Origin: Amyelois transitella
Lineage: Eukaryota; Arthropoda; Insecta; Lepidoptera; Pyralidae
DNA length: 64,000 nucleotides
Direction of reading: 5' to 3'
Assembly (NCBI RefSeq): GCF_032362555.1
Contig: NC_083516.1
Span: 6,659,001 to 6,723,000, forward strand
Shown here: positions 6,552-63,032 of the stretch, piece after piece
Layout of the letters: each line of letters opens with the position of its first letter
Position numbering within the stretch: the first letter of the stretch is position 1
Notes under the pieces: model-generated
Database searches by the model: none
The model's input: the letters and a program-made list of their open reading frames with translations, nothing else
Told to the model about the DNA's origin: nothing
Translations under genes and position numbers: made by a program

Positions 6552-9500
6552 TCACACTTGATTCCCAGCGGATGACTTTTTGCGGGTTAGCCACAGCACA
6601 TTGGGCTTCTCGTAATACTGTTCTATTTGAATTAGCGATTTTCCTTTAGTTTCTGGCAGCATTAAAAATAAGATGATCGTGGCTAAAGTTGACGAAGCAC
6701 CGAAAAGTCCGAAGACACCGTCCATCCCGATAGCATTTTTCATAATGGGATAAAGTTTTGTGAACCCAAAGAGGACGGCGTTGAAAAGACAGAAGATGTA
6801 ACCTCCGCAGAGGCCGCGAACTTTTGTGGGAAGGAGTTCTCCAATCATAAGTCCTGGCAATAGAAAAAATCCAAGAGTGTTAAAAGCAACATATCCAAGA
6901 ATGAGTGTGGGTGGGAGGATGCCGTATCCGGGGCCTTGGGATAATATAATGGCGAGGGAGAGGGTGCATATGGCTCCTCCGATTCCTGATAACATGACAA
7001 GTGCTCTCCGTGTTATCTTTAGAAGCAGTATACACGCAATCACGGTGACACACAGCCGGACTAAGGCGCTGGCGTTGGCTGCCATCTGTAAGCAGAAATA
7101 GATGCTAGGTATTAAAAAATGTATTAGATACAATCAATATGGTACTGATGATAACAATAATAGAAGTCCAGTGGAGCGTACAACTTATTGTTTGCTATGA
7201 ATGCCTTGCCGGCAATGAAATCTTGGTACTAACATGAGGTTTTAGGGCTCCACCCGAATCCTTGACGATGTCCACGGCGTAGAATATGACGACGTAGCTG
7301 CCAGACAGAATCTGCAGCATGTTGAAAGCGTTGATGAGCAGCAGTGGTTTGAGTACGTTTGGCTTGAGGACGGTCGCGAAGAATCGAAGACCCTCTTCTC
7401 CCCTCGCTTTCTCTTTCTCCCGCGCTGATATAAGTTCGTGGAGTTCACGTTGAGCCTGAAATGTATGAAAAGGTTAAGTCTATAAGCATCTTCAAGTTAA
7501 TACGAGATTAAGACACTTTCCCTTCATGCTTATTTTCATGAGAACAAAAATATCTTAAGGGATTTTTTATTGAAGCTTTCTGAATTTGTCTGAAAAAACA
7601 CTACCTGTGGAAATAAATGTAAATTGGACAAAAAATTGCTTAATAATATGAAGAAATTGCATGGCATTTCTTTCCCCACACGATCCTGTTATTTCTTTTA
7701 TTTCTACTTTATAAACCTTTATTAAGTTGAAATACAAGGAGTGTGGGTTTGTTCTTCCCCGCGTTATTTTAGAATATTTTTACATATAAAAACAGTATAT
7801 CGGTAAAATGTGATTTTAACCACAACGCCATCCAGTGCAAATCGGTAAAACTACAACGGGGTCAATTCATACCACGTTGCATGTCCACTCATAAGTTCAG
7901 AGAAAAATTAATTAGATGGCGTTGTCTATAGACAAAATAATTTTTGTATGGGAGCCCCCTTAAATAATTACTTTATTGTTATTAAATTATTTATTTTGAA
8001 ATATAATATACTAGAGGCCGCCCGCGACTTCGTCCGCATGGAAACCCTATCAATCCCGCGGGAACTCTGGGATAAAAAGTAGCCTATGTGTTATTCTGGG
8101 TCTTCAGCTACCTACATACCAAATTTCATGGTAATCGGTTCAGTAGTTTTTGCGTGAAAGAGTAACAAACATCCATACATCCATACAAACTTTCGCCTTT
8201 ATAATAGTAGTAGGATGTACAAGTCTGTGAAAATTGTTGAAAGGTGTCCTCCCCCCCCCTAATTTTTTAATTTTTAGTATTTGTTGTCATTATAGCGGCG
8301 GAAAAACATAATTAAAATAATCAGCTTTCTAGCTATCACAATTTATGAAATACATCCTGGTGACAGACAGACGGACAGACAGACAGCGGAGGCTTAGTAA
8401 TAGGGTCCCGTTTTTACCTTATAGGTAGGTACGGAACTCTAAAAATAATGTGTTATATTTGACATTTGATGCATTTGGTATGATATTCTGGAGAATATAA
8501 CAAGCGTAAAATTGCGAACGCGGGTACCATGTTATGTTAATTGGCTTACACGCATAGGTACGTTGTACAAGTAAATACGTAAATAGATCTCGTAAATTTA
8601 TTGTGATAATATATCACACTACACGTGTAGCGGACACGATATAACATTAGATGTAAGTAGCATTCAAATGAATTGATCCACCAGATGATCACTAACGACC
8701 TTTACATTGTAAATGTTAACCAATCATTTTGTGTGAGCACGCGTTCGCAAAATGTATGTGACGTAATAATGTAGTAGCAACAATCATACAAACGCTATAC
8801 AATGGCACATTTTGTTTATCGCGCTGTTCATTCGAGAAGCCCCTCATCAATGGCAAGTGGTCGCTTGTTGAGCTCATTAAGAGCTCGTTTAAGAGATTGC
8901 CGGAATCATGGACGAAGTTTCAGGTTCCCGGACTAATACAAATAACACTTCGTCGACTGTCAATGGGTCTTTCTGGAAACTTGCGTTCTCAGTGTCATTA
9001 TTAAAATGGTTTCAAATGTATACCTACTGCAGCTAAGGAAAATATATATACATACTTTAGGATATTTCGAAGTAGGGCGCTTTTGATCCAATTTAAATTC
9101 GATAGAGATATGATGAATGTGGATGAAGCGAAAGAAGTTTGCAGGGATCGTGGCAAGTGACTTTATACTTTGACGATGTATCTTGTCTCTGCCTATCTCT
9201 CTGGGAAAGAGACATGATTTTATGTATGTAGGTATATGTTATATCTCTCAGCAGTGTATACGGTACTTACTGTGTCAGAATTACCCCTCAAGCATGACAT
9301 GGCAGCCATAGCTTCATGGAACCGACCCCGGCGCGCCAGCCACGTGGGGCTCTCTGGCGAGAAGCACAGAGCCACGAACGCCAGGATCGGCAGAACTATG
9401 CAGAGGAAGGCTACCGATCTCCACGGCAGTGCCCCGCCCAGGGCGTACACGTAAAGTACCCCTAAGGAATACGCCACGAATGGAGTCCCTATGAGCAGAC

Positions 9501-12500
9501 CTCGGAGCCTTGGCTCGGAGATTTCTCCTAAATACACCTGTTGACAAAGATTGAATTGGTAAGTGTCGTTGGAGTGTAAAAAATAGTACAAATTCTTTGT
9601 GCTTTATCTCTACTTAGAAAAATTACACTTTGCTATTACTGCAATGCATCTTTAAGGTACGTATTTAGGTATTTGCAAACTGTTGGCTCTCATATTAGCC
9701 TTTTTGCTTCGGGGCTCAATTAACGCTTTTCGCAGGGTTTTGTTATTTAACTATCTACTTTTTAGAACATGAAAAATGTACATTAGGTATATAAAAACTT
9801 AGTAGGTACCTACCTACCTGTGTGCAGTTATGCAAAATTTTGGTAACATTTATATTTTATCTCAAATATCGTTTTTCAGTTATAGGTCTGTTTATACGTA
9901 GATACATAACGTTTCCTGTCTGATTCACTGTTCCCGATAACTTTAATTTCATGACTTTTGTAAATGCGTACCTACGTACGAGTATCAGCTTATCAGCAGT
10001 AACATAACACAGATTGGCGTGTAGGGAGTTTTCGTTTGGTAATCCATATTTTATAATCTACCCAAGCATTCGTATTATGTCATTGGATGAATAAAGATAA
10101 ATGTATTCGATAATACTGAATCAATCGATCATTAATTAAATCTGAATTTTTTTATTCTTATGATTATGTGTTTTATCATGGTGAGAGTTGCTCCAATCAT
10201 CATTGTCTCCCTGACTTGTCCTCATTGGGTACAGGAAAAGAGCATCTGTCTGCTTACGTCCGTAACCTAAGTCTTAGTCGCCGCTTACAACATACACGGG
10301 AAAGACATTTAGTGCTACTTAAATTTTACATACTTATTTATTCTAATAATGTTATCGTGGCAGAATGAAGTAGTTAAGGTACGAAACAGATTGCTTTGAA
10401 AATAAACTCAATTAAGTAGTTACGAGTATTTATTGTGTCTACCCTTTTTTTTTTTACTTATTTGGTATCTTAGTAATTCACTAAGCAAACTCCTTCCACG
10501 TGAATATTTTGCGTGCTTTTTATCAAGTTTAATACTCTACAAAAAAGTTATTGAACTATGACCGCAAAGACACAGTAAGTAGGTAGGTAGTAAATCGATA
10601 TCTTGAAGTGACTATTTTTAAGATCACGACACGAGAACCATTAAACTTAGATAAAATGCTTTAGATACTGTTTATGGACGTCATTCGGCTAACAAGAAAA
10701 AAACCCTGTTCAATAAACGAATTCCCATATGGCGGTGTTCCACACAAACTTAGAGATTTTACATTCTGTCTCGCAAGCGTTAAGAAGAGGCAGACATGTT
10801 TGCCCTTGCTCGAAAGAGTAGGTATTAAAAATAAGAAAACCCAAGTATTTATCACAAAAATAATTTCTTTGTAATGTGCACAGTCATCGATTTGATGTAC
10901 CTATATTCGTGATAGCGGTCATTTTCCGTGACAGTGCGTGATCATAACATGTAGCTGTCTTTTCCATATCATCTTAGTAAGGGGTCATTTGACAATATCG
11001 GTCACGGAACTATGGAAGATATAGTTCACCTACATGGTAATTGTATAACTTAAGAGAAAATTTATATAGGGGAAGTACGTCCAAAATGACATATACGGAC
11101 AAAACGACACATTAGTGATATTTGAAAACCTGCACGGTATAAACTGTCAAAAGTTAGCCAATTAAGAAGCACCTACACCGGAAATATACCATTCGAGTTT
11201 TGAGAGCTGTTTAAAATACAGAACGGACACCATGTTGACATTTGTTTTTTGAGGTTGGAAAAAAATTTGATAGTGGTCATTTGTTTTTTGTTTTTTGATA
11301 AGTTTTCTTTTGTTATTGTACTGTCCGTTAATTTTATATTTCGAAGCAATTTGTGTTTGAGGTGATCGCGTTGAATTTAAAACATTATTGTCACTGCAAC
11401 AGGATTATTTTTCGAATCGTAATATTTTTTGAGACTATGTACAAAATGACATACAACCACTATGGACAAAACGACATAATGTGTCATTTTGTCCGTAGAG
11501 ACGGTGGTAAGAGAGTTAATGTCATTTCTCCAGTGCCCAGTGGTAAATTTGTAAGTGGACAGGGTAAAAGAAAGCCAAAGAAACGAACGACGACATTCCT
11601 ACTTACGTCATCACCAAATATGGCAGAATTAAAATACAAACGAGAGAATGCATCTGAAAAACCAACTCGTAAAAGGAAACAAGCAGTTACTAAGTCTCTT
11701 TACATAGATGATGACTCAAATGAAGAGCGCTCTGATCAAGAAGACGAAGAAGATGATTGTGCCTGTATTTACTGCAACGATCTCTACTCACGTTCAAAGC
11801 CTGGTGAGGGGTGGTTGAGGTGCAGGCGGTGCAGTCGTTGGGTTCACGCAGCCTGTGCTGATTTGCCAAAGCGTACTAAAAATTTTGTTTGCGAATTGTG
11901 CAATTAATTTTTACTGTTGTCTCTTATTTTATCATTTTTTTTATGTTGATGGCTGTGTATGTCATTTAGTCCATACGACTTGTGTCGTTTTGTCCATACG
12001 GTATGGACAAAACGGATTTTTCTTGATCTTCATTTAATACTAAATATTTTTGTAAGTGTTGATTTTTCTGACAAAATCTATATGATTCCTGTTAACCAAT
12101 TAATATAAGCAAAGTTGTAAGTAAAAAATATGTTCCTATTATGAATAATATTAAAGTTATTGATGATTGATAAAACGATATGTCATTTTGGACGTACTTC
12201 CCCTATTATTTATTTATGTTTGTAATACTTACTTAGTACTGTTTTCAATTTAAACCAGCCTTTCTGTTTCAATATTGCATAGAAATTCATATATCTGAAC
12301 AATATGTGAAGCAGTTAATTTACCTTTGGTTTTAAAGAGGGTTTGTTTAACGCTAACATTGATGAAGTGAAAACTTTTTTTAATCTAATTTAAACATACA
12401 ATGGGAATGCTATAATCATCGGGAATAGCAAGTATTAGATATGATATCCTTTGGTTTATATAAATAGTTATTTAGCAGGGTAGGACATTGGAATATCTAG

Positions 12501-32374: not shown

Positions 32375-32448
32375 CAACCATTTCGCACGACTGGAGATTA
32401 TACCAGGATCAGCCATTGAAGGAATCGGTGCAATAGAATCTTTCGAAA

Positions 32449-32787
32449 ATGGAGATCTTGTTGAATTTACCTCCATTATTTATTCTCCTTTTATTCGCGG
32501 TCCATATTCAATCAAAGCCCGTTTCAGATAGTAGTAATACTAATTCCTTAATATCGCATGGTACAGAGGGAGAGGTTGAAATGATGGAAATAGCAGAAGC
32601 GCAAAATCCGTTTCTACCAAGGTTCGCTATGAAAAAGCTGAAAGAACGACGGGAGCAAGCGCGAGCGCAAAGGAGGAACAACCAAGCGCAAAAGTTGAGC
32701 AACCCGATACAGGCGCACGCGCACCCAAATGTTTGGTGCCTGCACAATCCATACAGACGATATTATGTAAGTAGTTGTAAGCTTTAA
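32449..32787 (+). CDS. Small secreted protein of unknown function (first of tandem pair)
   Basis: Not recognised. The open frame is 112 aa. A clear signal peptide is followed by a short acidic part (EGEVEMMEIAEA), a strongly basic stretch (KKLKERREQARAQRRNNQ) and a tail with aromatic residues (CLHNPYRRYY). Start: first ATG after a well-placed TATA box. The frame ends VSSCKL, but the codons for VSS are GTAAGTAGT, a consensus splice donor at 32767. If it is used, the coding part stops after RRYY (residue 106), and the acceptor at 33268 supplies TAA at once. No AATAAA or ATTAAA exists between here and the next ORF, which favours that splice. Function is unknown; secretion is the only supported inference. 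Confidence 0.6.
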   Translation: MEILLNLPPLFILLLFAVHIQSKPVSDSSNTNSLISHGTEGEVEMMEIAEAQNPFLPRFAMKKLKERREQARAQRRNNQAQKLSNPIQAHAHPNVWCLHNPYRRYYVSSCKL

Positions 32788-33280
32788 TGTGGGAATATAA
32801 AATAAGCAGATGTTTACGGTTTTGTCTGTCACAAATATTTAAGAAAAACTGTTTTTTTGTGACACTCAGTATTTACAACTGTGTTAAGTTCACGTTATAC
32901 AGTTTACATATGAATAAGCAGTGAGAAATACAGGTATATCTCGGGATGCTCTCCACAAAGATGAGGATGAAACCGAGACTCACGCCAGAAGGATTTAGAA
33001 TTGAGATAACTACCTATTCCTTAAGTCTGTTTGTTATTTTATTTTGTTTGATGTACACATTGAAGACTCAATTTTATCAGTTTGGGAATTTCATTTAGTA
33101 TGTGAACAATGATGTTCGTGTACATGTATCAATATTTACTTAACTGATTCCCGTATTCGTAACGGCCACCTTTCTTTGACCCAGATCTTGAAAATATAAG
33201 AATTCGGAATGAGATGTAATCGACAGATTCATTTCTGCTGTGGCATTAATAAGTACCTTGACTTTCAGTAAACATCAAAC

Positions 33281-33868
33281 ATGAACAAACGGGTGATTTG
33301 GCTGATGACGTTAGTGCTCGCGAGTGTGCTTGCTGATCCTACTTCAAAACAAAAAGTTTCGAGTGATAACAACCAGCCTTTGTCACAAAGTACCAGCGAG
33401 GAAGCAAAACATGACGACAAACCATTGTTAAACAAAACCGATTCAGAACAAAAGAACCAAATTACAAATACCAACGTTAAAACAAGGGAAGATGCAGCAA
33501 ATATAGAAGATTCTAATGTGGAGTTAATAATTAATGTCGAAGAAACTATTGATCCTGTCGAAGAACAATTTCCACAAATACAAGATGTGCTAAATATTGA
33601 CGATGGAGATTTCAAAATATTGGATCGTGAAGATTTTAACCGGGACGAGGCAATGGAAAGTAATCCTGACGAAATAATGCAAACTGCCGCTGGATTCGTG
33701 CCTGTGCCTATCATAAGGAAATTCAGACAAAAACAGAAGGCGAGACGCCGCGTCGCCACTCGCCGGCAGTTCAAACGTCACCCACGCCCGTACACGCCAT
33801 GGCGGTATTTGTATCCATACTCTTATTACTCGTTTTATCGGCCGAGCTCTCTAAGATACTTTTATTAG
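33281..33868 (+). CDS. Secreted acidic/basic protein of unknown function (second of tandem pair)
   Basis: Not recognised. 195 aa in one exon, ending TAG. The signal peptide (MNKRVIWLMTLVLASVLA, likely cut before DPTS) precedes a Ser/Asn/Gln/Glu-rich low-complexity region. Next come an acidic middle (NVEETIDPVEEQFPQ, DVLNIDDGDFKILDREDF), a basic stretch (RKFRQKQKARRRVATRRQFKRH) and a Tyr-rich end (YLYPYSYYSFY...SLRYFY). The order signal-acidic-basic-aromatic mirrors the 32449 product, with FVPVPIIRKFRQKQKARRR against FLPRFAMKKLKERREQAR. The ATG lies 13 nt after a splice acceptor (ctttcag|t), and no TATA box is placed for its own promoter. Polyadenylation signals are at 33874-33879 and 34014-34019. 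Confidence 0.7.
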   Translation: MNKRVIWLMTLVLASVLADPTSKQKVSSDNNQPLSQSTSEEAKHDDKPLLNKTDSEQKNQITNTNVKTREDAANIEDSNVELIINVEETIDPVEEQFPQIQDVLNIDDGDFKILDREDFNRDEAMESNPDEIMQTAAGFVPVPIIRKFRQKQKARRRVATRRQFKRHPRPYTPWRYLYPYSYYSFYRPSSLRYFY

Positions 33869-34722: not shown

Positions 34723-37700
34723 TCATTTCCCGGGGCCTACGAGGGCTTCATCCATCAGTTCATCGTCTGTGATCCCCGGGGAGTTGGAGTGCGGGGAGGG
34801 GGCCACCACCAGCGGCGAGGGGGCGGGGCTCTTCGTCAGCTGCAGCCCCAGCGCCGGCGACGGCGGGTACATGGACCGCACCGCCACCATCCCCGACACT
34901 TTGCTGCCAGATGACGATGAGAAATCCAACAACATTTCGGCAGCCTCCTGCGGAGTGGTAGCCCCGCTCCGGGCCACCGACCCACTCGCCGGAGGTTTCA
35001 TACACGCATCTGCCCCCTTCCTATCTTCCGAACTGCCTTTAGGCGCTGGAAACCCCTTTATCAAATCAGTTTTAAAATCTAGAGGCATCAGAGGGTATGA
35101 ACCGGAGTATTCTTTCGCGTCATCTTTACCGCGTTGTGGGCTTTCACTTTTCAAACTCTCTGCCATGGCTTTTGTAAATTCTAAAGGCCTATCGGTTTGG
35201 TCCCCTTTGTTAGGTGGAACGGTTTTCGGGCTTATGCCGCCCATGTTTAGCAATGGCTTTGGCACGTTCAAAGGATAGGATGACTTTTGCAAGTCAGCAT
35301 TTCTGGCGTTAGAGTTATCGTAATGGGCATACGGGTATTTGTTTTGGTCCATAGTCCTCGAGAAATCATTAACCATAGATCGACTGTCGTATTGCGATAC
35401 TGGATTGTTTTTGTCAGTCGTACTCTGGTTCTTTAGTTTAGGAATTTGAAATTTGCTCGTATCGAGCGGTTTCATCAGACCTTCCATCAGAAAGTTGGCA
35501 TCTTTAGCTGCGGCTTTGAATCTATCAGCGTCCACTTCGTCTCGTGAACTACTGGGACTCGAATGCCTTTCTGATTTTGATGAGAATATATTTGACGATT
35601 TTTCAGTATTGAGTTTGGTTCTAACTTTTTCTCTCTCCCTATCTCTAATTATCTTAGTAAGGTCTGAACTGCTGCTTTTTGGCGAGCCTGAACTGGTCTT
35701 CGAAGCTGATTTTGATAAATTGATCCCGGCGCTGCTGGACGAAGATTTTGAATAAGGCACTTTCGGCAAGTTGCTACTGCCTGATTCTGAAGGGCCCGCG
35801 TTTGTTTTCGGCGGCGTGGACGCAGAACTAACACTACTAGCAGACTTTGAAGACTGCATCGCTTGGGTTTTTTTGGAGGCAGGCCCGCTTATTACACCAG
35901 GTTTCAGACCCGTGTGCGTCTTAGGCGAACCTTGACTCGGTGGGGTGAGCTGAGGTGACGATTGTTTACTCGAACTGGAGCTACTGTAATTCAGTTTGGA
36001 ACTGCTACTGGAGGACTCTTTTGTCCTTGTTTTGTTAATAGTTATCTTCATACCGTCCGAACTAGGTTTTACCATATATTCTTGATTCTTACTATCAACT
36101 TTGACGCTACCGTTTTTTGGATCAGAAAATTTGTTTGAACTACCTGATGAGCTGCTAGACTTGGTTCCGCTCGATTCGGCATCAGCTCCGCAGTGTTGAG
36201 CGGACTTCAGTTTGTCTATCACAGCGCTAAGTGAACCCTTACGATTTCGAGCCTGACTCGGAGCGTTGGATTTGTTCACTTCCACATTTGGTGGCGATAT
36301 CAAAGGCTCGGTGACCGGACTATCACAGGAGACGGGAGTAATCTCTAATTGTTTTAGTTTAACTGGTGTTTTCAGCTTCGGACTACTCCTGCCGGAACTA
36401 GAAAAAGATAAACCGGAATGTTTTTTTTCTTTGTCTCTAGAAGTCGACGAACTGCTGCCGTAACTGTCTTTTGTTAACTTTTTTGTTAGGTCGTAGCCGG
36501 TCGTACCGGATTTTCCCGAAGGGGAGCCGCTGGTCGCCGACTTGAGAGTGGACATGCTGGGCTTTCCTGATCCCGAGGAGCTGTGTTTGGGCGAGGAGAT
36601 GCTGTGGTTTTTAGGGCTCGAGTAGCCGGGCAAGTGCTTCGGGCTGTTCTGCACGGGCGAGTGCCGCGGGCTGCCGTGGAGCGCGCCCGGCTTGCCCTTG
36701 GCGGGGCTGGCCGCGGGCCGCCCGGGCGTGGGGCTCGGGCTGAACTTCCGCAGCAGCGACGTCGGCGAGGCCGGCCGCATGGGCGCCCCGTCCGTCGGCT
36801 TTATGCTGACCGAGACGGGCTTCGTCAACGGGTCTTGCTTGGGAGGCACCTTCTCCGGGGGGCCCATGGAGTCGTCCCTGCGCCTTTTCTTCTTTTTCTC
36901 CTTGCTGCGTTCTTCACCAGACTTGCTGGATTTCTTTTCGGATCTGTTGCGGTCGTCGAGAGATTTGATTTGGGAGGAAGTGATAGGGGTGATGGTTATA
37001 GAGCTTGGCAGGGCTGCCGGCGCCGAGGAAGAGATGGGGATGATCTCGATCCCGGGGCGGCGGTCCAGGCATAACATTGATGATATGTTGGACCCCGAGG
37101 ACGCGCCAGAAGAAGTGTTGGAGCCGATGGGCGTTATGCTGACGGAGGAAGGCATATACGATTTACCTTCGGTTAGATCTAATAGCAATGAGGATGTACT
37201 TCTACTTCGTACTTCTTCTTTGTTTTTAAGCTTTTGCCTTTTGTGCTCAGACTTCTGAAAAGAATTCCTGGAACAAAAGAAAATAATTCTTAATTGCTTT
37301 CTTGTTTTTCAATTTATTCTTCTTTTTAAGAACACAAAATAAACTGAATAAAATAATTGTCTAGGACCAGTCTAGGCGGAAATTTTGTTTAAGGCACAAT
37401 TTCTGCAGTAGAATTTTTGCGGCTAAAATAATGAATCAGCAATGAAATATAAACACAAACCTCATCATATCTTCGACGTCTCCATCGTTAGAGTTGTCCA
37501 TGTCGGAGGAAGCCCGATTGTCTTGCCCTCCGATAGCATCCGTGGCGTCCATCCCAGAAAGTTCCAGATCCGACGCGAATTCGTTCTGCGACACCGACGA
37601 CTCCCTACCTTCCACATCTTCATTTGTGGAGTTGCTATTCATAGTATTATCATCTTCGTTGACATATTCGGAGTTGTCACTCTCGCTCTCTGAATCCGCC

Positions 37701-51986: not shown

Positions 51987-52337
51987 CCATATAATAATAA
52001 AAATAATTAAAATAATGCCATGCATTTTATATCACGGAACATCAGATAAATCATTTCACAGGTACATTTTCTTAATTGTTCATTAAGAGTACGACATAAT
52101 AACATTCAGATATAATCTAAATCTCTCCCTCCTTAATTTATTTTTTTAATAACTAATGTAAGAGTATTTAAATGTTTTGGGGTTATAAACATAGAGATCC
52201 TATCGTCAGTCCACTACAAACTTACTAAATATTATACTATAATTACGTAAAACACAAGTGGACGTAAATTTTGATAAGATAAATATGTTAGACGTGTGTA
52301 GTTATAAGGGTAAGTGCAGACTGGAACATGATGTTTC

Positions 52338-55300
52338 TCAGCGCAGAGGAAGAAAATCCTGCGATCGCTTGGAGCCAATAGGGAAATGCGAGAGGTCGAT
52401 CTCATCCATGGGGTAGTCGGATCGCAACCGCTTCTTGTCAAAACTTGAGCTGGAAATTCAAGATTAAATTCAGAAAAATGCCATTTGTAAACGTAGGTAT
52501 TGTAAGATAGTTATATTTATAGTCGTTTTCTAACCTACTTAAATGTAGAGGTATTTTGTAGATTCGTGTATGTAGGTAGGTGTGTATTATTTCACCTATC
52601 AGGTAATAAGTAAAGTAAGCTTCGTGACGTTTTACCTTAATCCCTTATAATACAAAATTAATCGGGGAATACTGTTTGTGTTTGAATGTCACATAAAGCT
52701 TACTTACTATCAGGTTATTTGAAAGTTAAGTAGCTTGAAATCTCTATTATAGTTTGAAGTTTCCTTTTGTTAATTTGTAAAGAATTTATAGGTACTTTTA
52801 ATTTATTTTGCAAATACATAATTACTTAACTAGGTATTAAAATACTTATTTGTTATTTTTTTGCCAGTTGTATTTATCGTTATAACAGGATGTTCGGCGG
52901 TTAAAATAAATAAATATTTGTATTCAACTTGGAATCACTTTTTTTACTAACAATATTAATAGGTATTGACATTAATATGTCGATACCTTTGTTTTGTTTG
53001 TTCATGTTATTTGATGCATATTAATTAGCTTTATCCGAAATAATCCAATTATGTTAGTGGATTGCATGGACAACGGGCAGATTATTAGATATTCGAATTC
53101 TCACAGTAATGAATGAGGACTCTCATTGAATAGTTTCCCGTAGTATTCTGCATTCGTATAAGTTGCATTTTCAGCTCGAATGTGGATGATCAATATTTTA
53201 CGTGTTTTTTATGGTGACCAGTTTTTGATCGACAAACGCTTACATCACACAACATTCTTTGAAACGTTTGAGACTTTTACATGAAACGTCCTCAAATCTT
53301 GCAAGGGAAACTGACTCGTATTGGATCTTGGTTTCCCCACGATGTTTTGTCCTCATCGGTTAGTATTCAGACTAAATTAGATAGTGACTGGGAAATAACA
53401 TTAGTTACCGACGCCTTACAGTGGCGTGTCATTGTCAATGAGGTTAGGTCCGTACAGGTGGTAGAAGCGCTTGCTGGCGTACGGGAATGGCATCGACGTC
53501 TGGTCAATCTCGTCGAAGTTCCTTTTCTTCACGAAATTGTCCAGCCCGGAACTGTTGAGCAAATATATGGATATTTGACTATCTTTTTACAATTTAATTA
53601 TGGAATTAAATTGTAAAAAGATAGTTGGATAAATATTTTTTTGGTTGCTACAAGACACGCTCAAATACAAACAATTTAAAGGATGGAAGGATTTTTAGTT
53701 GCAGTCTTTTTTTAACGAAAATACTCCAAAACAAGATACACACATATCTATACTAATATTACAAAGCTCAAGAGTTTGTTTGAACGCGCTAATCTTAGGA
53801 ACTACTGGTTCTAATTGAAAAATTATTTGTGTTGAATAGACCATTTATCGAGGAAGGCTTTAGGCTATATAACATCACTGTGCAACTATTAGGAGCGAAG
53901 AAATAATGGAAAATGTGAAAAAAAGAACGGGGAAATATATTTATCCTTGAGGGCTCAATGATGCCCAAAATAACTATTCCACGCGGACAAAGTCGCGGGC
54001 ACAGCACACACATAAGTTATACATAAAGATAAGCTATCTAAACCATCAGAAGTGATATAGTAACCTATACCTTCACAATAATTCCCACTGGAGTGAAGCC
54101 CCAGGCAAAGTTTTATTTGCTGTGCTATATTGCTTTGCCTTTAAGTGCTTTTTGATAGTTAATAGAAGTCAAATGAAAATGTATTAGTAAGGTACTTTTA
54201 AACACAAACAAACTAATTTGATAGCAAAAATGGTTCTAAAACTTAGCCAAAATATTGTAAAAAGAAATAAAATACATCCTTAAATTGAGATGTCAATAAG
54301 CATTTACCAGCATAATTAACTATATATGTGGCCAAGAAAAATAAATAAAATATTGTTCTGCCAAATGTCGCCTCGGAAACGTCGGGAATAATTTTATCAT
54401 TGTTATGTAGATTGTGCTAATGGACAAAAACGCGATTTGGTGGAGATCGTATAAAGCCAGCGGTATCTATGACAAGCGACGTCACTAAATATGTTAATAG
54501 TTTTGATCACATCAGACATCTTACTAACTTTCAGGAGTTTAGTTGCGATATTATTATTCGGATCTACAAAAAAATCTGGTGCCATATTCTTTGATTAATT
54601 CTGAAACTTCGTAACAAATTTAAATCAAATTAAATTTACATGTAAAAGATATAGATTTTTTATCAATTATTTATATGTCCAAACATTTTAAACCGCTCTG
54701 TATTACTGCTTGTGTGTGTTGATGGCCAGTTGAAATATCCATGTTTAATTCTTGTAATAAAGGAATGTTAGTAAAAAAAAAATTGAGTTGTTTTTCTCAC
54801 GAGACATAAAAATAAATATTTTAAGAATTATATTGCCTTGTTCATTCTGTCTTACCCAAATATTGTGAAAATCAGTGCACTAATTCAGTTTTTTTCTTCG
54901 TCTCTAGTACCATTTTTAATTTTTCTTCAATGTTTTTAAGTTCCAACCCAAGATCAATATTAAAAATATTGTCCGGATACTGTGTCTGAGTCACAGCAAC
55001 ACTTGGCTGGGTCAGCTTGTAATTCTTTATGAACTAGTATATTATTGAGGTAAAGTCATATCAAATACAAAGACGAATTCCAGAAACTATTAAACGTTTG
55101 AATACTTTATAACTTGAATTATGATTGTTCACTAAAATCGATATAAACATTTTTAAATCTTGAACAATACCTTAACTTTAATAAATGTTACGGGTCCCCA
55201 TAGTCATCTTCAAAAAGATCAAGTTTAGGTACCTACCTAATGAAAGTAAGAGTTGCAAAGAAACACTCGAACAAATTCAATTAAGTCATCGGTGAAGCTT

Positions 55301-58300
55301 GGGTTGGGTTGGGACCATGGGTTTTAACTTCGGCCCACAGACAATTTGGACCGACATATGAGCAATTAAGATTTTTCCTTTCTCCAAAATTATTTCTTGT
55401 GTCAGCCACAACCATAGCTAATGGATTATGTTCATAATGTCTAGACAAAATGGCCTCTAAAAATTAAACACTCTAAAAGAAGATTAAAAAATTTGTCGTT
55501 TTTTTACCACATTCAAAATACCTAAGTTTATACAATTATAATTTTTTGATTTAGCAAATAAAAACGACAAAACAATTCAATATTTTTAATAAGTATCCCC
55601 GAAACACGTGAAATATCAGTAAAATACATATTTTTGTTGTATCCACGTTTTGTTTAGAAACGTGCTTCACTCGCAAATAAACAGCGCCAAAAAGAAACAT
55701 AGGTGCCTGACTAAAACTGACGGCGTCACGTAGTTTGTTACATATTTTATTTCAAAATGATTTTGTTCTTCGAAAAAAAAGTATCAACGAAAGTATATGT
55801 TGAAAAACATATTCTATTATTCCAATCCAATCCAATCTTTTTCACTATAGCTTTATGGTATGAACACGTTTTGTTTCCAAGCAAACAATCCTAAAAGTAA
55901 CAAGTAAGCTAGCGTACCTACTTCATAAAAGTCATCAGTCTCACATGCCTAACGAGCAACAAAGTAGAAATCGTCGTATAAAAGCTTACTTACCGGTCTA
56001 TCTCATCAAAATTGCGCTTGGGTAGGCCGTCTCCGTAATATCCGGAATACTGCGCTGACGCTAGCCACGGCTCCCGTTTGGCTCCTCCACCATATGGGCT
56101 GAAAAGACTTGGAATTAGGGCGTTAGCGGAAATTTTTTATTTTTATCGTACCAGATTGACATGCCCATTACAAAATTAAACGTGTCCCAGTATTAATAAA
56201 ACATTTCATATGTATTGATAGAATTCATAAGATTGATTTAATTTTGGATGTGCACCTGTTCGTTATAGCGACTGAAGAAATGATATCACCATGCCTGTAT
56301 GCTAAGACGAAAACAGAGCAAGCTTTAACTAAATCTCAATTGTTTGCTCAATAATCCTGTGTTTTTGTAAAACTTCAGTTTGGGACACGGAGTTTGCATT
56401 CGCGCCAATCTCTACCAAAAACCGCTGAAACTATATTTGCCTATCACTATCACGCCTTGCAATAACTGTTCTTGACGGCAGGCAGTACTCGGATGTCGAT
56501 ATAGTAGACTTTGAACTAGGAATTTGTTCGTCGTTTATATAAAATTTCTTGTTATTTTTTTATAACCTTTTATTATTTCTTAGAGGAAAGCTTTATTTTA
56601 AAAGATTGGACTGCGAAATTTGTTGGTAAACAACTGTTCCTGTATCGAAATGGCGTGCAACGGTAATGATTTCTTGGAATTCAATAGAATTACTACCCCT
56701 GATATTGGTAACTCAATTTCCTGGTACATTGTTTTCTCGGATTATAAGATGACACCAATACGGTACCTACGTATCAAACGGAAATGGTCGGATGATACAA
56801 TAGCAGCCTTGATTTGTTCTTGTAAATATAAAAGTTTCGTAAGAGACAAATTCCTAAGATGTTAACGCTATAATTTTAAGTAATAATTTTAATAACTTTC
56901 TACAATAAATGCTCACTAAATAGTTACCCGATTTTTAAACCTAGGTAGTAATTATAACTTCTTCTTGATTGAATTCAGAAAGATGCCACGTTAATAATTA
57001 AATTAGAATTTCACAATTATTATGAAGATTTTTTTATATACTGACCTTCCATAATCGTATCGTCTGGACATGAGATAGGGTACAATGCCATGTCGCAACT
57101 CGCGTACTTCCCGCACCAGGTTACCGCCGCCCAGGGGATCCAAATTCCGTGGTTTGTGACCTTCGGTTTCATAGATTATCATAAATACGATTAAACACAA
57201 CCAACAAACAAAAATGTCATAATAAAAATGTACTCATAGGTAACATGATGGTTTTCTTACCCTTGTGCAACTAGGTAAAGGACAATGAGTTGGGGACATA
57301 AAAAGCAAGTTAAATGTTGCTATAATTTATTTTATATAATTGTTAACATCGAGGATAAACAACGACAAAATTCAACTAGTACTCAAAAAGTTAACTGTAG
57401 GTATCACATTTTTTACGTTGTATGTTTTATGGAATTATGATTTATTTTAAAATTGGTGGTAAGGATTCTTATTATAAAATTATATTAAATTAGCGCCGCC
57501 AATGGAATCCAACTCGCGCACTAAGTTGCCACCACCCAAGGAGTCCAGGTTCCGGACCAAATTTCCACCTCCCAATGAATCTAGATTTCTCTTCACTAAA
57601 TTGGGGCCTCCGAGTTGATCTAGGTTTTTCTTCACCATGTTAGCACCTCCGATGGAGTCCAAGTTTCGCACGAGGTTACCACCACCGAGGGAATCGAGAT
57701 TTCTGACTAAATTACCGCCTCCAAGCGAATCTAAATTTCTTACAAGATTTCCTCCACCAAGGGAGTCCAAGTTACGTACAAGATTGCCACCTCCAAGTGA
57801 ATCAAGGAATCTCGAGTATCTATTCCCCTCTATCTCTCTTCCAAGCAAAGAAGAGCCACCTACTCCATTTAAATTTCTGCCTGCTAGGCCTGATCCTCCG
57901 ATACCGTGCAGGTTTCTGCCTTGCCAGAAGCTTGTGCCACTCATTGCTAAATTTCTTCCCACTAATGAGGATCCACCGATTCCAGCAAGGTTTCTACCCA
58001 ACAGTGAACTACCCCCTACGCCATTAAGATTTCTTCCAAGCAAGGTATTTCCACCTATTCCGTTTATATTACGATCAGCTTCATATCGGACTAGAAATCG
58101 TATGAAATCTTCTAGTTCTTCCTTGCGGTAGTCTGTAACAATGCGCACTGTTATAATTTAAAGCAATATTATTTACTTATATGGAAATATACAACTGTAT
58201 TAAATACTAAATAGTACTCACCACTAGTGCTAAAAGACAGTTGCACAGTGCACTGGAAGATTTGGTGTGCGGAGGTTTACTCTGAGGACAGTGCGGAATC

Positions 58301-60584
58301 CATCACCAAACATTAAAGGGTGTTTGTAAGAATTATTTCCAAGTAAGTGCAAATTAAAGTGCAAACAACCATACTGGAAGTGTTAATCCGGAGGAAAGTG
58401 ATACACATAAGGTTTGTGAGTATTGGGTTTGCAATGGGATACCGTTTATATACAAGTCTAGGTTTCTCGGTAGAATAAGGCTTGTTCGTAAAATAAGGTT
58501 CCTGTAGAACAGCAGTGCTAAGGTGCGTTTCTGTTAGACTTCGACTTTAATATCTATTTACCTACAACTAGGTTGAAAACACCATGCTATTTGAATTTCA
58601 GCCTCGTGGTCATTATTCCAATTTAGTTCTAGCTCTCAATAAGTGTCTGCGGTGTTTTTTCTTAGCTGGCAGATCATTAGATGCGAAAGAAGATCCTTAT
58701 TTTACGAATAAGGCTGGAATGTTGATATTGCACCTATTTAAATTGATGCAGAAAGTGTTCCAAATATATTACAAGTTTTATTTCTCACTGAACTAGGTAT
58801 TTCTAAAATTACCCATTCGTTAAAAGGTTAGCTGAAGCTTTAGATAAAGAACTATACATTCTTCTTGACTCATTTAGGAAGTACTTAATTGATTAATTAA
58901 AATTTGACTCTAAAGCAATTGAGAAATAGGCACAATAATCAGACCAAGATATAAAAATGCTAGAAACCATGTTGAGGGTTTTAATATTTATACAGTGCAT
59001 TGTATCTTTTAGTGAGTAGGACACCTTATGGTAGTATATGTACAATGGTGCAATTCGTTATTTAAAGCAATCTTTTAATTGTATTTGTTAGATTTTATTG
59101 AATCGAGATTGTATAAAGTGAATAAAATTAAATGATTGCATAAAATAATGAGGGTCGAGTAAATGTTGAGTATAAACACAAAGTGAAACGATTAGTGAAT
59201 ACATAGAAAATGTTTGTCTTTGTTTTTTCTAGACATACATTTTTATAGGTAATGAGCGCTTACCAGTTCCGTCGTAACGATCGCCCGAATTATGTTCGCT
59301 GTTGCTCACTTCCGATTCCTGAGTGGAAATGTACACATTAACTTATTTCGAAGAAGTGGATACTAATATCTTAAGATAAGTATAAACTGTTCTTATTGTC
59401 GAATAACTATAGTCCTGATAGGCAGACCACAGTGTGCTTCCCAGGGTGGACATAACCAAGTCGGTTGACGAAGCGCTTTTATTAGATGATGTAATGTTGA
59501 AACCTCATAATAGATGTTAATGATATTCAGTATTTATGAAACTTTCGCACTTTGTACAAGTATCTTTGACAATATCTCATGATCAAAACATTTGATTGGG
59601 AGCTTAAGTTATCATCATGTTTTCGCGGCGAGACTCCCTGTACAAAGCTCTTGAGGATGAAATTGTCCGCAAGTTAATTAATATTCTGTTGCCAGTATAA
59701 TTTTCTGCAAAGAAAGGAACAAGTTACACGATGGCTTGTTCATAATAGTTATTAAGCCCTCAAAATTCTAGGAACTTAGCTTCGATTATATATTTTATTA
59801 CAGTTTTCGATATCATGGGATCTTTTGGATATTTGTAATTTATGACTTCGGCTCCAGTATGATTCGAAAGAATAAATGATGTTAAAATTTACACTTTTAA
59901 TAAAGTAGGATATTAGTAGGTTACTACTTACTATTATAATAATAACTATTATCCTGGATAATTTTGGCTTTAAACTGAAGGTGCCGGAAACCGGACAAAT
60001 TGGAGTGAAATTATCTTAAGGTGGACCTTGGGCCCATGAGATATTGCAGTGGAGGGTGCATTTGGGAACGCCAGAATAAGAGAGACACTGGTTCGTTTTG
60101 GCAATTTACAAAAATCTTAAGAAATACTAATTTTAATTCACACAAGTCATAATATGCATTACATATGTAACTGTGCAAGTTATACTTTACTTCCGTATGT
60201 TAAGAACAGTCTTGCAGTACCCGACAATAGGTCTACTCCATCTTATTCCCATGGGTGAAAATTAAAATAAATCATACATACACATCTACATCTACATAAT
60301 CACGTTGTTATCCCTTACGGGATAGATAGAGCCAACAGCACTTAAAATTAGCATTAATAAGGATAAGATACACCAAGGGAACAGAAACCCACTCCTGGAT
60401 CGTAGTTACCTGTGCCAGACCCGTGACTCTTCCCCAGACGTATCCGGAACAAACACCAGGAGCATAACAATTAATGTAAGTAGAATAAAAGGAGATGATG
60501 TCTTGATCATACCTGATGAGGATCAGCACTGCAGCTGACCAGCAATGCGATGGACACCGCTAACACTCCACTGACGCCACGCAT
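52338..60584 (-). CDS. Orcokinin precursor, A-type splice form
   Basis: Secreted neuropeptide precursor. Exons in order: 60584-60513, 59318-59264, 57160-57046, 56098-55994, 53551-53420, 52449-52338. These total 591 nt, 196 aa plus TGA, with all joins in phase. The first exon encodes the signal peptide (MRGVSGVLAVSIALLVSCSA). KR/KKR-bounded products include EPWLASAQYSGYYGDGLP, NFDEIDRSGLDNFV (the classic orcokinin A core NFDEIDRSG), NFDEIDQTSMPFPYAS, and SDYPMDEIDLSHFPIGS, with FYHLYGPNLIDNDTPLSSFD as a spacer peptide. The exon at 57160 also encodes a B-like peptide, NLDPLGGGNLV. Exons 1-2 are shared with the B form; both third exons join at the same phase, so the forms are mutually exclusive. 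The 53551-53420 exon is symmetric and could be skipped. Confidence 0.9.
53420..53551 (-). other. Orcokinin A cassette exon (symmetric, 132 bp)
   Basis: Acceptor ctcaacag|t, donor ct|GTAAGG. It encodes most of NFDEIDRSGLDNFV and all of NFDEIDQTSMPFPYAS. It enters and leaves at the same phase, so skipping keeps the frame and would give NFDEIDRSSFD instead. The donor overlaps an in-frame TAA, so failing to splice ends the protein at ...NDTPL. A strong hairpin stands 27 nt upstream of its acceptor. Confidence 0.8.
53578..53625 (-). repeat. 22-bp-arm hairpin next to orcokinin A cassette exon acceptor
   Basis: The arms 53578-53599 and 53604-53625 are exact inverse complements with a 4-nt loop. In the transcript they lie in the intron 27-74 nt before the acceptor at 53551, where a branch point would be expected. 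Confidence 0.85.
53745..54010 (+). repeat. Decayed RTE-like retroelement tail in orcokinin intron
   Basis: Begins tatctatactaatattacaaagctcaagagtttgtttg and later has attccacgcggacaaagtcgcgggcacagc. Both blocks are typical of the common lepidopteran RTE-derived repeats. Confidence 0.6.
57480..58147 (-). repeat. Tandem peptide-coding repeats of the orcokinin B exon
   Basis: Fifteen units of 11-13 codons, almost all bounded by Arg. Third-position differences between identical peptides (CGA, CGT, CGC, AGA for Arg; varied Gly codons) show that the repeats are old and kept at protein level, not fresh DNA duplications. Confidence 0.85.
57480..60584 (-). CDS. Orcokinin precursor, B-type splice form
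   Basis: Exons 60584-60513, 59318-59264 and a terminal exon 58147-57480: 795 nt, 264 aa plus TAA. After the shared signal peptide and linker, the terminal exon gives a short conserved-looking lead (VTDYRKEELEDFIRFLVRYEADR) and fifteen tandem peptides. Block 1 has six ending in Gly-Arg, such as NLNGVGGSSLLGR (twice) and the divergent NLAMSGTSFWQGR. After a spacer (EIEGNRYSR), block 2 has nine of the LDSLGGGNLVR type, including NLDQLGGPNLVKR. The GG core and hydrophobic end are those of insect orcokinin B peptides. Most sites are monobasic Arg. The exon has its own stop and 3' end, so it works as an alternative last exon upstream of the A-specific exons. Confidence 0.9.
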
Positions 60585-62019
60585 CTTGCCACTTCTGTAC
60601 CTGCCACCAAAATTTAATTCCTACTTCAATTCATTTAATTTTGTTACCGTCTTCAAAAGATTCAACCTGTAGTGTTTTTTATATTTTCTTGATTACTTGT
60701 AGATTTCACTCTTTGGTCCGGCTTTGTAAACCATGATTGCTGTTCTGCGCTGTGCTGAGTGCTTTTACCCGGGGCTGAGCTCTCTAAGAATTTTCGAGAA
60801 AAAAATAGTCTATGCTACTTCTGAAGGTTTTGCCTCTTTCTGGACGTAGTCGAATATTGGGTTCAGTATTAGTATTTGAATTTATATTAGAATGGAAGAA
60901 TGGACAACATCTTATCTCTAATGAAGATACCAAGGAACTCTCCAATAATTATCAAATCAAGGGAAATTCTGTTCTTGTAAAAAAAATAACAAAATACAGT
61001 TTTTACTTGCGAAACAAAAAGGAAAAAAATATTTTTTTTTTTTTGAAAAAAGATAAAGACTTAAACTGTATTTATATAATAACAACTCTAAGTTGTACTT
61101 TTTGATTTGTTGACATACATATACGCTATTAAAAAATTGTTTTGGAATTTTCAGAGTTCAGAAATGGCAGCTACTATTTAAATTCTAGGAAAAATTTAAT
61201 ATACCTAGTGATGCTCCTCAGTGAATGCAATATAACCGGTTATGTGGGACTCGTAAATAACGCAATAATCGCGACATGTCATGACCATGATTCTTCAATA
61301 TTGGTGTATAAAATGGCCTCATGGTTGAAATGTGACATAACTGCGTGAATGTATGTCGCTTATTCAAAATTGAAATTTCCTTCATCGATAGGGAACATAT
61401 TGAATGTGTATTTTAACCTCAAATTTTAACGTTCATAAACAACAACAAAAGAAAACATCAATTTATTGTCATATATTTTATTAACCACAATTTGATTTTG
61501 ATGGAGTTTCTTTATATTAATAATTAATAACCGAAACTTAAATTTTCTTTTAGCTGTGTGGGTTTTAAAAATATTTTTAGGGTAATTAAAGTGACATCTC
61601 TTCTGCAGTGTGTTACCGGAATACTACCTATTAATACATATAATATAGAGACATACTATATTATATATATCATTCGGAAATGATTGATAAAATAAATAAA
61701 CTAAAAGTATATTAACTTTGATATACCACAAACTATACATTAGAAAAATAATGTGAATTCGATAAATAAGTAGTTCATGTCTGGTGTAAGTGGGATAAGG
61801 CTACACGTGCAAGTAATCTTGGCATATGATTGGTCATAATTTGCAAAGGCTATATATAGAATATTATTTTCTTAGGAATCGCATTCTATTAGTTGTACTT
61901 ATAGTTTATGCTATTCTTAATTTGGGACAAACGTCTCGATGTTATTGATGGGAATAAAAATGTTTAAGTAATTTCGCACAAGGTAGAATGATTGTGGTAA
62001 TCCATACTACTATTTAAAA

Positions 62020-62170
62020 TGTGAAAGTGTGTTTTTTTTGTTCATCTTTCACGTCAAAACCATTGAACCGATCTCGATCTCTATGCAATTTTGCATACAT
62101 ACATAGGTACAGTGTGAAGTAAGAAGAAGAATATAGATGCGGGCGGAGCAACGGGTGGAAGCTAGTAATA
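62020..62170 (+). repeat. RTE-like retroelement fragment in orcokinin first intron
   Basis: Contains tgtgttttttttgttcatctttcacgtcaaaaccattgaacc, ending gatgcgggcggagcaacgggtggaagctagt, the antisense-read common tail. Confidence 0.55.
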
Positions 62171-62336
62171 GATAAAATATGGTAAGAACTATGAAAACTG
62201 TAATTACATATCCAATTTACTGAAAATACAAATCAAACTACGAATAAAAGGATGCTTTCCGCAAAAATTTGGCAACAGATAGTTATAATATCGTAAGTAT
62301 TCTGCTATGGAGTATTTGTAGGTAGATAAATATGAT

Positions 62337-62366
62337 TTTTTTCCCGTGCTAATGCACGGGAAAAAA
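62337..62366. repeat. GC-core hairpin (cccgtgc/gcacggg with T/A flanks)
   Basis: The 13-bp arms 62337-62349 and 62354-62366 have a taat loop. On both strands the structure reads GC stem then T run, which resembles an intrinsic terminator, but that has no meaning in an insect nucleus. Confidence 0.8.
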
Positions 62367-63032
62367 GTCTCAGGAAAGTTCTAAGCGATCAAATTACTTT
62401 TTAATAATTAAAACACAATAGTTAGTGTATTTACCATAGATAAAACTATGTTCTGCCTTAGTTCCTACTATTTTATTGCCCTGTATTTATTTATTATTCT
62501 CCAAATGTCTTTAAGTTGATTGAAAAATGAACCTACAAAATTAGCAACAATTTTATTTAAAAGAGACATACTGGTAATGGAGGCTTTTGAATAGGCCGCA
62601 ATGGTTGAGAATATTATGTTTCAAATCCCGTCATGAATAAACAAAGGAATGAGAGCTTGGACGGCGGCAACTTTGGAAGGTAGTATCATGTTTTTAAGGG
62701 GACTACAAATTTTGTTAAATTACAAAAGTATAACTTGTTGTTGATAGCTATTATTTTACTAATCACTTGGTTTTTATTGAAATGAAAAATTAAAAAAATA
62801 ATATGAAGTAAAAAAAGAAGGTAAATACATAGAACATACCAACAAAATACATATATTACATATTAGGGAAATATTTTCGTATTATTATATTTAAAAAAAA
62901 ACATTTTAAAAATGTACTTATTATAGAAAAAATATTAAAGTGTAATACTTTATCAGCTAACAAAAAAGACCAAAAATCAAATATATTTTTCCGAGCAAAA
63001 ATATAAAAAATATATTTTTTTAAAGTACCAAC

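Follow-up and report, generated by a model that had tools for sequence, protein, structure and literature searches.

This locus raises the question of how a single gene might supply two different sets of peptides, and how far the choice between them can be read from the DNA. We examined the minus strand between positions 52000 and 61500 of the window (the whole 64,000-nucleotide stretch of DNA that was analysed), rebuilt the exons from there, and concluded, with a probability of about 0.93, that the locus is an orcokinin (OK) gene in which two shared exons feed a choice at intron 2 between two endings, B and A. The sequence itself shows the exon anatomy, the open frames, the coding selection on B, and homology for both the A tail and one B peptide, and the gene has the following parts.

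60513 to 60600, minus strand: exon 1, the first coding exon, with an acceptor-like start at 60600, the ATG at 60584, and coding sequence from 60584 to 60513
59264 to 59318, minus strand: exon 2, the second coding exon, shared; 55 bases, phase 1 out
57480 to 58147, minus strand: B terminal exon; 668 bases, starts with TG, TAA stop
57837 to 58070, minus strand: six 13-residue Gly-Arg units, inside the B exon
57441 to 57446, minus strand: AATAAA after the B stop, a candidate poly(A) signal found by string match; a second starts at 57331
57046 to 57160, minus strand: A3, the first A-only exon; starts with GT, phase 1 in and 2 out
55994 to 56098, minus strand: A4; 105 bases, phase 2 in and out
53420 to 53551, minus strand: A5; 132 bases, phase 2 in and out
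52338 to 52449, minus strand: A6, the terminal A exon; carries LRSDYPMDEIDLSHFPIGS and a TGA stop

Exon 1 opens with a hydrophobic, signal-peptide-like stretch (MRGVSGVLAVSIALLVSCSADPHQ, judged by eye) and ends in phase 0 at the donor CAG/GTATGA; a non-coding exon is implied upstream of it and was not located, donor scores in 60601-62500 reaching 6.1 at most. An earlier note on this DNA had placed the end of exon 2 at 59264 with one leftover base, and the sequence bears this out: the base is a G, followed by GTAAGC. The same note held that the TG at 58147 and the GT at 57160 both accept this phase, and we found that each continues the exon 2 frame and yields a complete precursor, of 264 amino acids plus stop for B and 196 amino acids plus stop for A; both tails share one phase and stand behind common 5' exons with the signal-peptide-like start (again judged by eye). 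The B exon, with its own stop, does precede four A-only exons, at coordinates that all proved correct, and this open anatomy supports the proposal that B is an alternative last exon, used in competition with skipping to the A exons. The AATAAA hexamers after the B stop lie in an AT-rich stretch in which such hexamers are common, 10 being listed across the 6.7 kb scanned.

What did not hold was the claim that these endings are readable from phase alone. Among the 343 AGs downstream of exon 2, 130 leave at least 20 open codons in the exon 2 phase, 87 leave at least 30, and 42 leave at least 50. The B exon alone is conspicuous by its open length, since all 21 of the AGs with at least 100 open codons fall inside it. 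Because phase is so permissive, it is peptide homology and strong donors that identify the A exons. Alternative A3 acceptors at 57232 and 57106, both in phase and open, were set aside with scores below zero. A 10-base microexon at 57270-57261, in phase between exon 2 and A4, was likewise rejected as being at chance level: in 200 Markov replicates of the region, pairs up to 60 bases apart arose 0.7 times per replicate with both scores as good and 3.1 times with the sum as good.

As a reference for homology, we used seven Bombyx mori peptides, six taken from PMC11817372 and one (Orcokinin-5, assigned by mass spectrometry) from PMC3534322. In alignment, all seven scored above every one of 200 shuffles of the precursor that they matched, which confirmed the identification of the locus as an orcokinin gene. 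Three of the matches cross splice junctions, with OKA_type5 spanning the A3-A4 join (7 of 8 residues identical), OKA_type1 the A4-A5 join (11 of 14), and OKA_type3 the A5-A6 join (14 of 20), and the three joins internal to the A tail are thereby supported. The remaining A-type matches lie within single exons: OKA_type4 in A3 (7/13), OKA_type2 in A5 (13/16), and Orcokinin-5 in A6 (16/19). In the B exon, OKB_type1 (NLDSLGGANF) matched at 8 of 10 positions. The two joins that define the choice, 59264-57160 and 59264-58147, are crossed by none of the seven peptides.

Within the A tail, A3 encodes a B-like peptide, NLDPLGGGNLV, together with ELRHGIVPYLMS; YDYGSPYG straddles A3 and A4; A4 ends within NFDEIDR; and A5 holds the end of the first NFDEID orcokinin and the complete second one, besides most of FYHLYGPNLIDNDTPLSSFD. 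Two NFDEID peptides of the NFDEIDR type are thus present between dibasic KR/KK sites. Reading through the A5 donor would add NDTPL and a stop, a form that we rejected as the main one on the ground that a B. mori peptide crosses from A5 into A6.

The strength of the splice sites was scored with generic matrices and ranked among the 458 GTs and 427 AGs of the gene region. The donors of exon 1, exon 2, A3, A4, and A5 ranked 8, 2, 7, 1, and 30, respectively; for random draws, obtaining at least four of five donors from the top 8 of 458 has a probability of ~2e-7, a value that flatters the model because the sites were partly picked for their donor-like look and the matrices are generic. Donors scoring at least 8.65 numbered 8, against 3.5 expected by chance. 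Acceptors as a class showed no such excess, with 16 scoring at least 6.8 and 15.0 expected. The acceptors of exon 1 and exon 2 ranked 24 and 3, and those that define the choice, 58147 for B (rank 135) and 57160 for A3 (rank 168), are the weakest among those inferred. Weak rival acceptors behind a strong shared donor are the pattern expected of a regulated choice.

The B exon comprises two families of short units, six of the NLNGVGGSSLLGR type and nine of the LDSLGGGNLV type, the latter providing the many LDSxGGxN-type peptides. Pairwise comparison of the nine LDS-type copies gave 91, 26, and 238 differences at codon positions 1, 2, and 3, and 201 synonymous against 58 nonsynonymous differing codons in 360 codon pairs. 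The corresponding values for the six-copy first family were 77, 57, and 127 by codon position, with 81 synonymous and 71 nonsynonymous differences in 195 pairs. It is therefore clear that the LDS-type stretch of B is coding and that selection acts on its peptides; for the first family, the signal is less striking.

The two families also differ in how their units end. In the first family, every one of the six finishes in Gly-Arg despite a variable interior (one reads NLAMSGTSFWQGR), whereas a terminal Gly occurs in none of the nine LDS-type units. Under standard processing rules, the first family is predicted to be amidated and the LDS-type units to be non-amidated. Single-Arg cleavage sites, described as a feature of most B precursors (PMC6585902), are present here as well: a single Arg ends 6/6 units of the first family and follows six of the eight non-terminal LDS-type units, the other two being followed by KK and KR. 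We offer tentatively, as a rather doubtful proposal, that one B exon encodes two chemically distinct hormone families, six amidated peptides (e.g., NLNGVGGSSLL-NH2) and nine free-acid peptides of the NLDSLGGGNLV type.

Where the B exon begins is evenly balanced between two sites. An AG at 58132, 15 bases beyond 58147, is also in phase and open and would shorten the B precursor to 259 amino acids, all else being unchanged. It scores 5.6 (rank 40 of 427), compared with 2.6 (rank 135 of 427) for 58147, but 58147 is the upstream AG and the matrices are generic. The AG reached first in scanning from the branch point is often the one used.

Whether the gene makes only two messages is a separate matter, and we put the existence of more than two somewhat short of even odds. 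The additional messages could be A forms that drop A4 or A5 without losing the frame, or another B-type message resembling the OKC of bugs. With A3 retained, all three combinations in which A4, A5, or both are left out stay in frame, the lengths of these exons being multiples of 3, and without A3, the frame was broken in all three combinations tried. Symmetric exons are common, however, and are often present without being skipped. Among published genes, “more structural subtypes” are attributed to BommoOKA (PMC11817372), OK-likea1 and a2 are given for Tenebrio molitor (PMC9552230), and three variants, two of them with B peptides, are reported for Nezara and Rhodnius (PMC6250713), which makes a strict two-way choice an unsafe assumption. 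Nor can mutual exclusion be read from the DNA, since phase-1 donors within B could join onward to A3: 20 of the 34 GTs inside B are in phase 1, and the best of them (5.9) scores about as high as the A5 donor (5.75).

It is very improbable that B is instead read from a promoter of its own, without splicing from the shared exons. The weak B acceptor would fit such an arrangement, as would a strong acceptor-donor pair at 58501-58222, in intron 2 ahead of B; the B exon frame, however, has no visible signal-peptide-like start, the 58501-58222 stretch is closed in the exon 2 phase, and in B. mori OKB is described as arising by alternative splicing (PMC11817372). Finally, the idea that these are chance open frames and no gene at all can draw on the permissive phase (130 of the 343 AGs), but it is refuted by the 7/7 peptide homology together with the donor ranks and the synonymous bias of the repeats, and its probability is negligible.

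The pair in intron 2 is an observation in its own right.

58222 to 58501, minus strand: best acceptor and donor pair of the gene region, with a sum of 19.8

Pairs with a sum of at least 19.7 arose by chance at a mean of 0.28 per Markov replicate. If used, this stretch would be a non-coding or poison exon.

Returning to the preferred reading, in which two shared exons, one with the signal peptide and the other a spacer, feed alternative B and A endings, both messages would come from one promoter. Use of the B acceptor, whether 58147 or 58132, would end the message at B's own poly(A) site, probably just after the B stop, and the precursor would then hold 15 short peptide units. A splice that passes over B to 57160 would instead give the four-exon A tail with its NFDEID orcokinins, and both precursors would presumably be cleaved into peptides. 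The choice may well be biased by tissue, with B in midgut endocrine cells and A in nervous tissue.

By analogy only, the likeliest regulator would be the neuronal ELAV/FNE proteins, which would cause B to be skipped in neurons. In Drosophila, proteins of the ELAV family inhibit the proximal poly(A) site and in this way push neuronal messages to the distal last exon (PMC8055025), although that article does not mention orcokinin. B transcripts may be midgut specific in Rhodnius and Drosophila (PMC4237046), which makes ELAV-driven neuronal skipping of B a natural hypothesis. In a scan for U-rich ELAV sites after the B stop, the T4 count was 11 where the mean is 5.7, a level that 19% of the other intron windows also reach. 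RNA folds around the two acceptors were no more stable than those of shuffled sequences (z of 0.27 and 1.61). One further donor-like site stands out.

57260, minus strand: strong donor-like AGG/GTAAGA, rank 5 of 458, past the poly(A) signals of B and ahead of A3

We found no use for this site, which might bind U1 and hold polyadenylation at B in check or might be there by chance.

The arrangement as such is already on record. The B. mori orcokinin gene has been published with exons numbered 1 to 8 and with A/B alternative splicing (PMC11817372, Figure 4 legend), which corroborates the earlier note's remark that such splicing is known in other insects and limits its claim that the exon map is new: the map is new for the present species, but not for the arrangement. 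Here, seven coding exons plus the implied non-coding upstream exon would likewise make eight, and the five A peptides listed for B. mori match A3-A6 and the one listed B peptide the B exon; the peptide letters differ, and among the six mature peptides listed in PMC11817372 there is neither a Gly-Arg B family nor an NLDPLGGGNLV-like A peptide. The earlier note's interpretation is right in outline, and the present locus, apparently from a lepidopteran to judge by the matches to B. mori, the species aligned, is thus an ordinary further species record. Elsewhere among insects, OKA and OKB are both listed for Chilo suppressalis (PMC4926255), and the exon organization in beetles, where established, is said to resemble that of other insects (PMC6585902).

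More distant species supply parallels for the two less usual features. Locusta and Zootermopsis (with Rhodnius and Drosophila cited) likewise have A and B transcripts, with many B peptides in B (PMC4237046), and the Locusta A transcript encodes a B-like/orcomyotropin-like peptide, NLDGLGGGHLLRQT, comparable to the NLDPLGGGNLV of A3 (PMC4237046); these species belong to other insect orders, their peptide letters differ, and the comparison is one of transcripts and peptides. For the orcokinin-like b of tenebrionids, an amidated SLDGIGGGNLV-NH2 is predicted, as we would expect for the six Gly-Arg units here (PMC9552230). The tenebrionid precursor is given as containing at least 30 amidated peptides and lacking the typical orcokinin motif (PMC9552230), whereas here six Gly-Arg and nine Gly-less units stand together in B and the NFDEID orcokinins are in A. 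Both the amidated B peptides and the B-like peptide in A thus have published parallels.

Searches beyond the gene region added little. A 50-residue B query against the species' own 327-Mb genome found one locus, with three matches, all within the B exon; this search scored best candidates only and did not report the B-like peptide of A3, so its reach is limited. Neither the A nor the B precursor matched any Pfam family at E values up to 10, and Pfam is not known to contain an orcokinin model. Six exact peptide strings from the gene had no match in the main texts of the literature searched, and for orcokinin with Danaus or Heliconius, there was no occurrence of orcokinin among the matches listed. 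The window also contains several open reading frames outside the gene.

6552 to 7133, minus strand: open reading frame with a match to Pfam Sugar_tr, in the C-terminal part of that family (E of 1.3e-17)
11332 to 11907, plus strand: open reading frame with a PHD-finger-like end that falls just short of the Pfam threshold (21.8 bits, where 24 are required)
32437 to 32787 and 33272 to 33868, plus strand: two short open reading frames that contain basic stretches and whose starts, by eye, look secreted; no Pfam matches at E 0.001
34723 to 37308, minus strand: serine-rich open frame of 861 amino acids; no Pfam matches at E 0.001

The locus leaves knowledge of orcokinin splicing unchanged and adds one clean gene model in which every coding exon is placed. 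Its modest worth is in the details, namely, a B acceptor with two candidate sites, weak rival acceptors behind a strong shared donor, and Gly-Arg peptides in B. If the B exon does encode two chemically distinct families, one splicing decision would set free two ligands, which might act on two receptors, and the A message would additionally make one B-like peptide.
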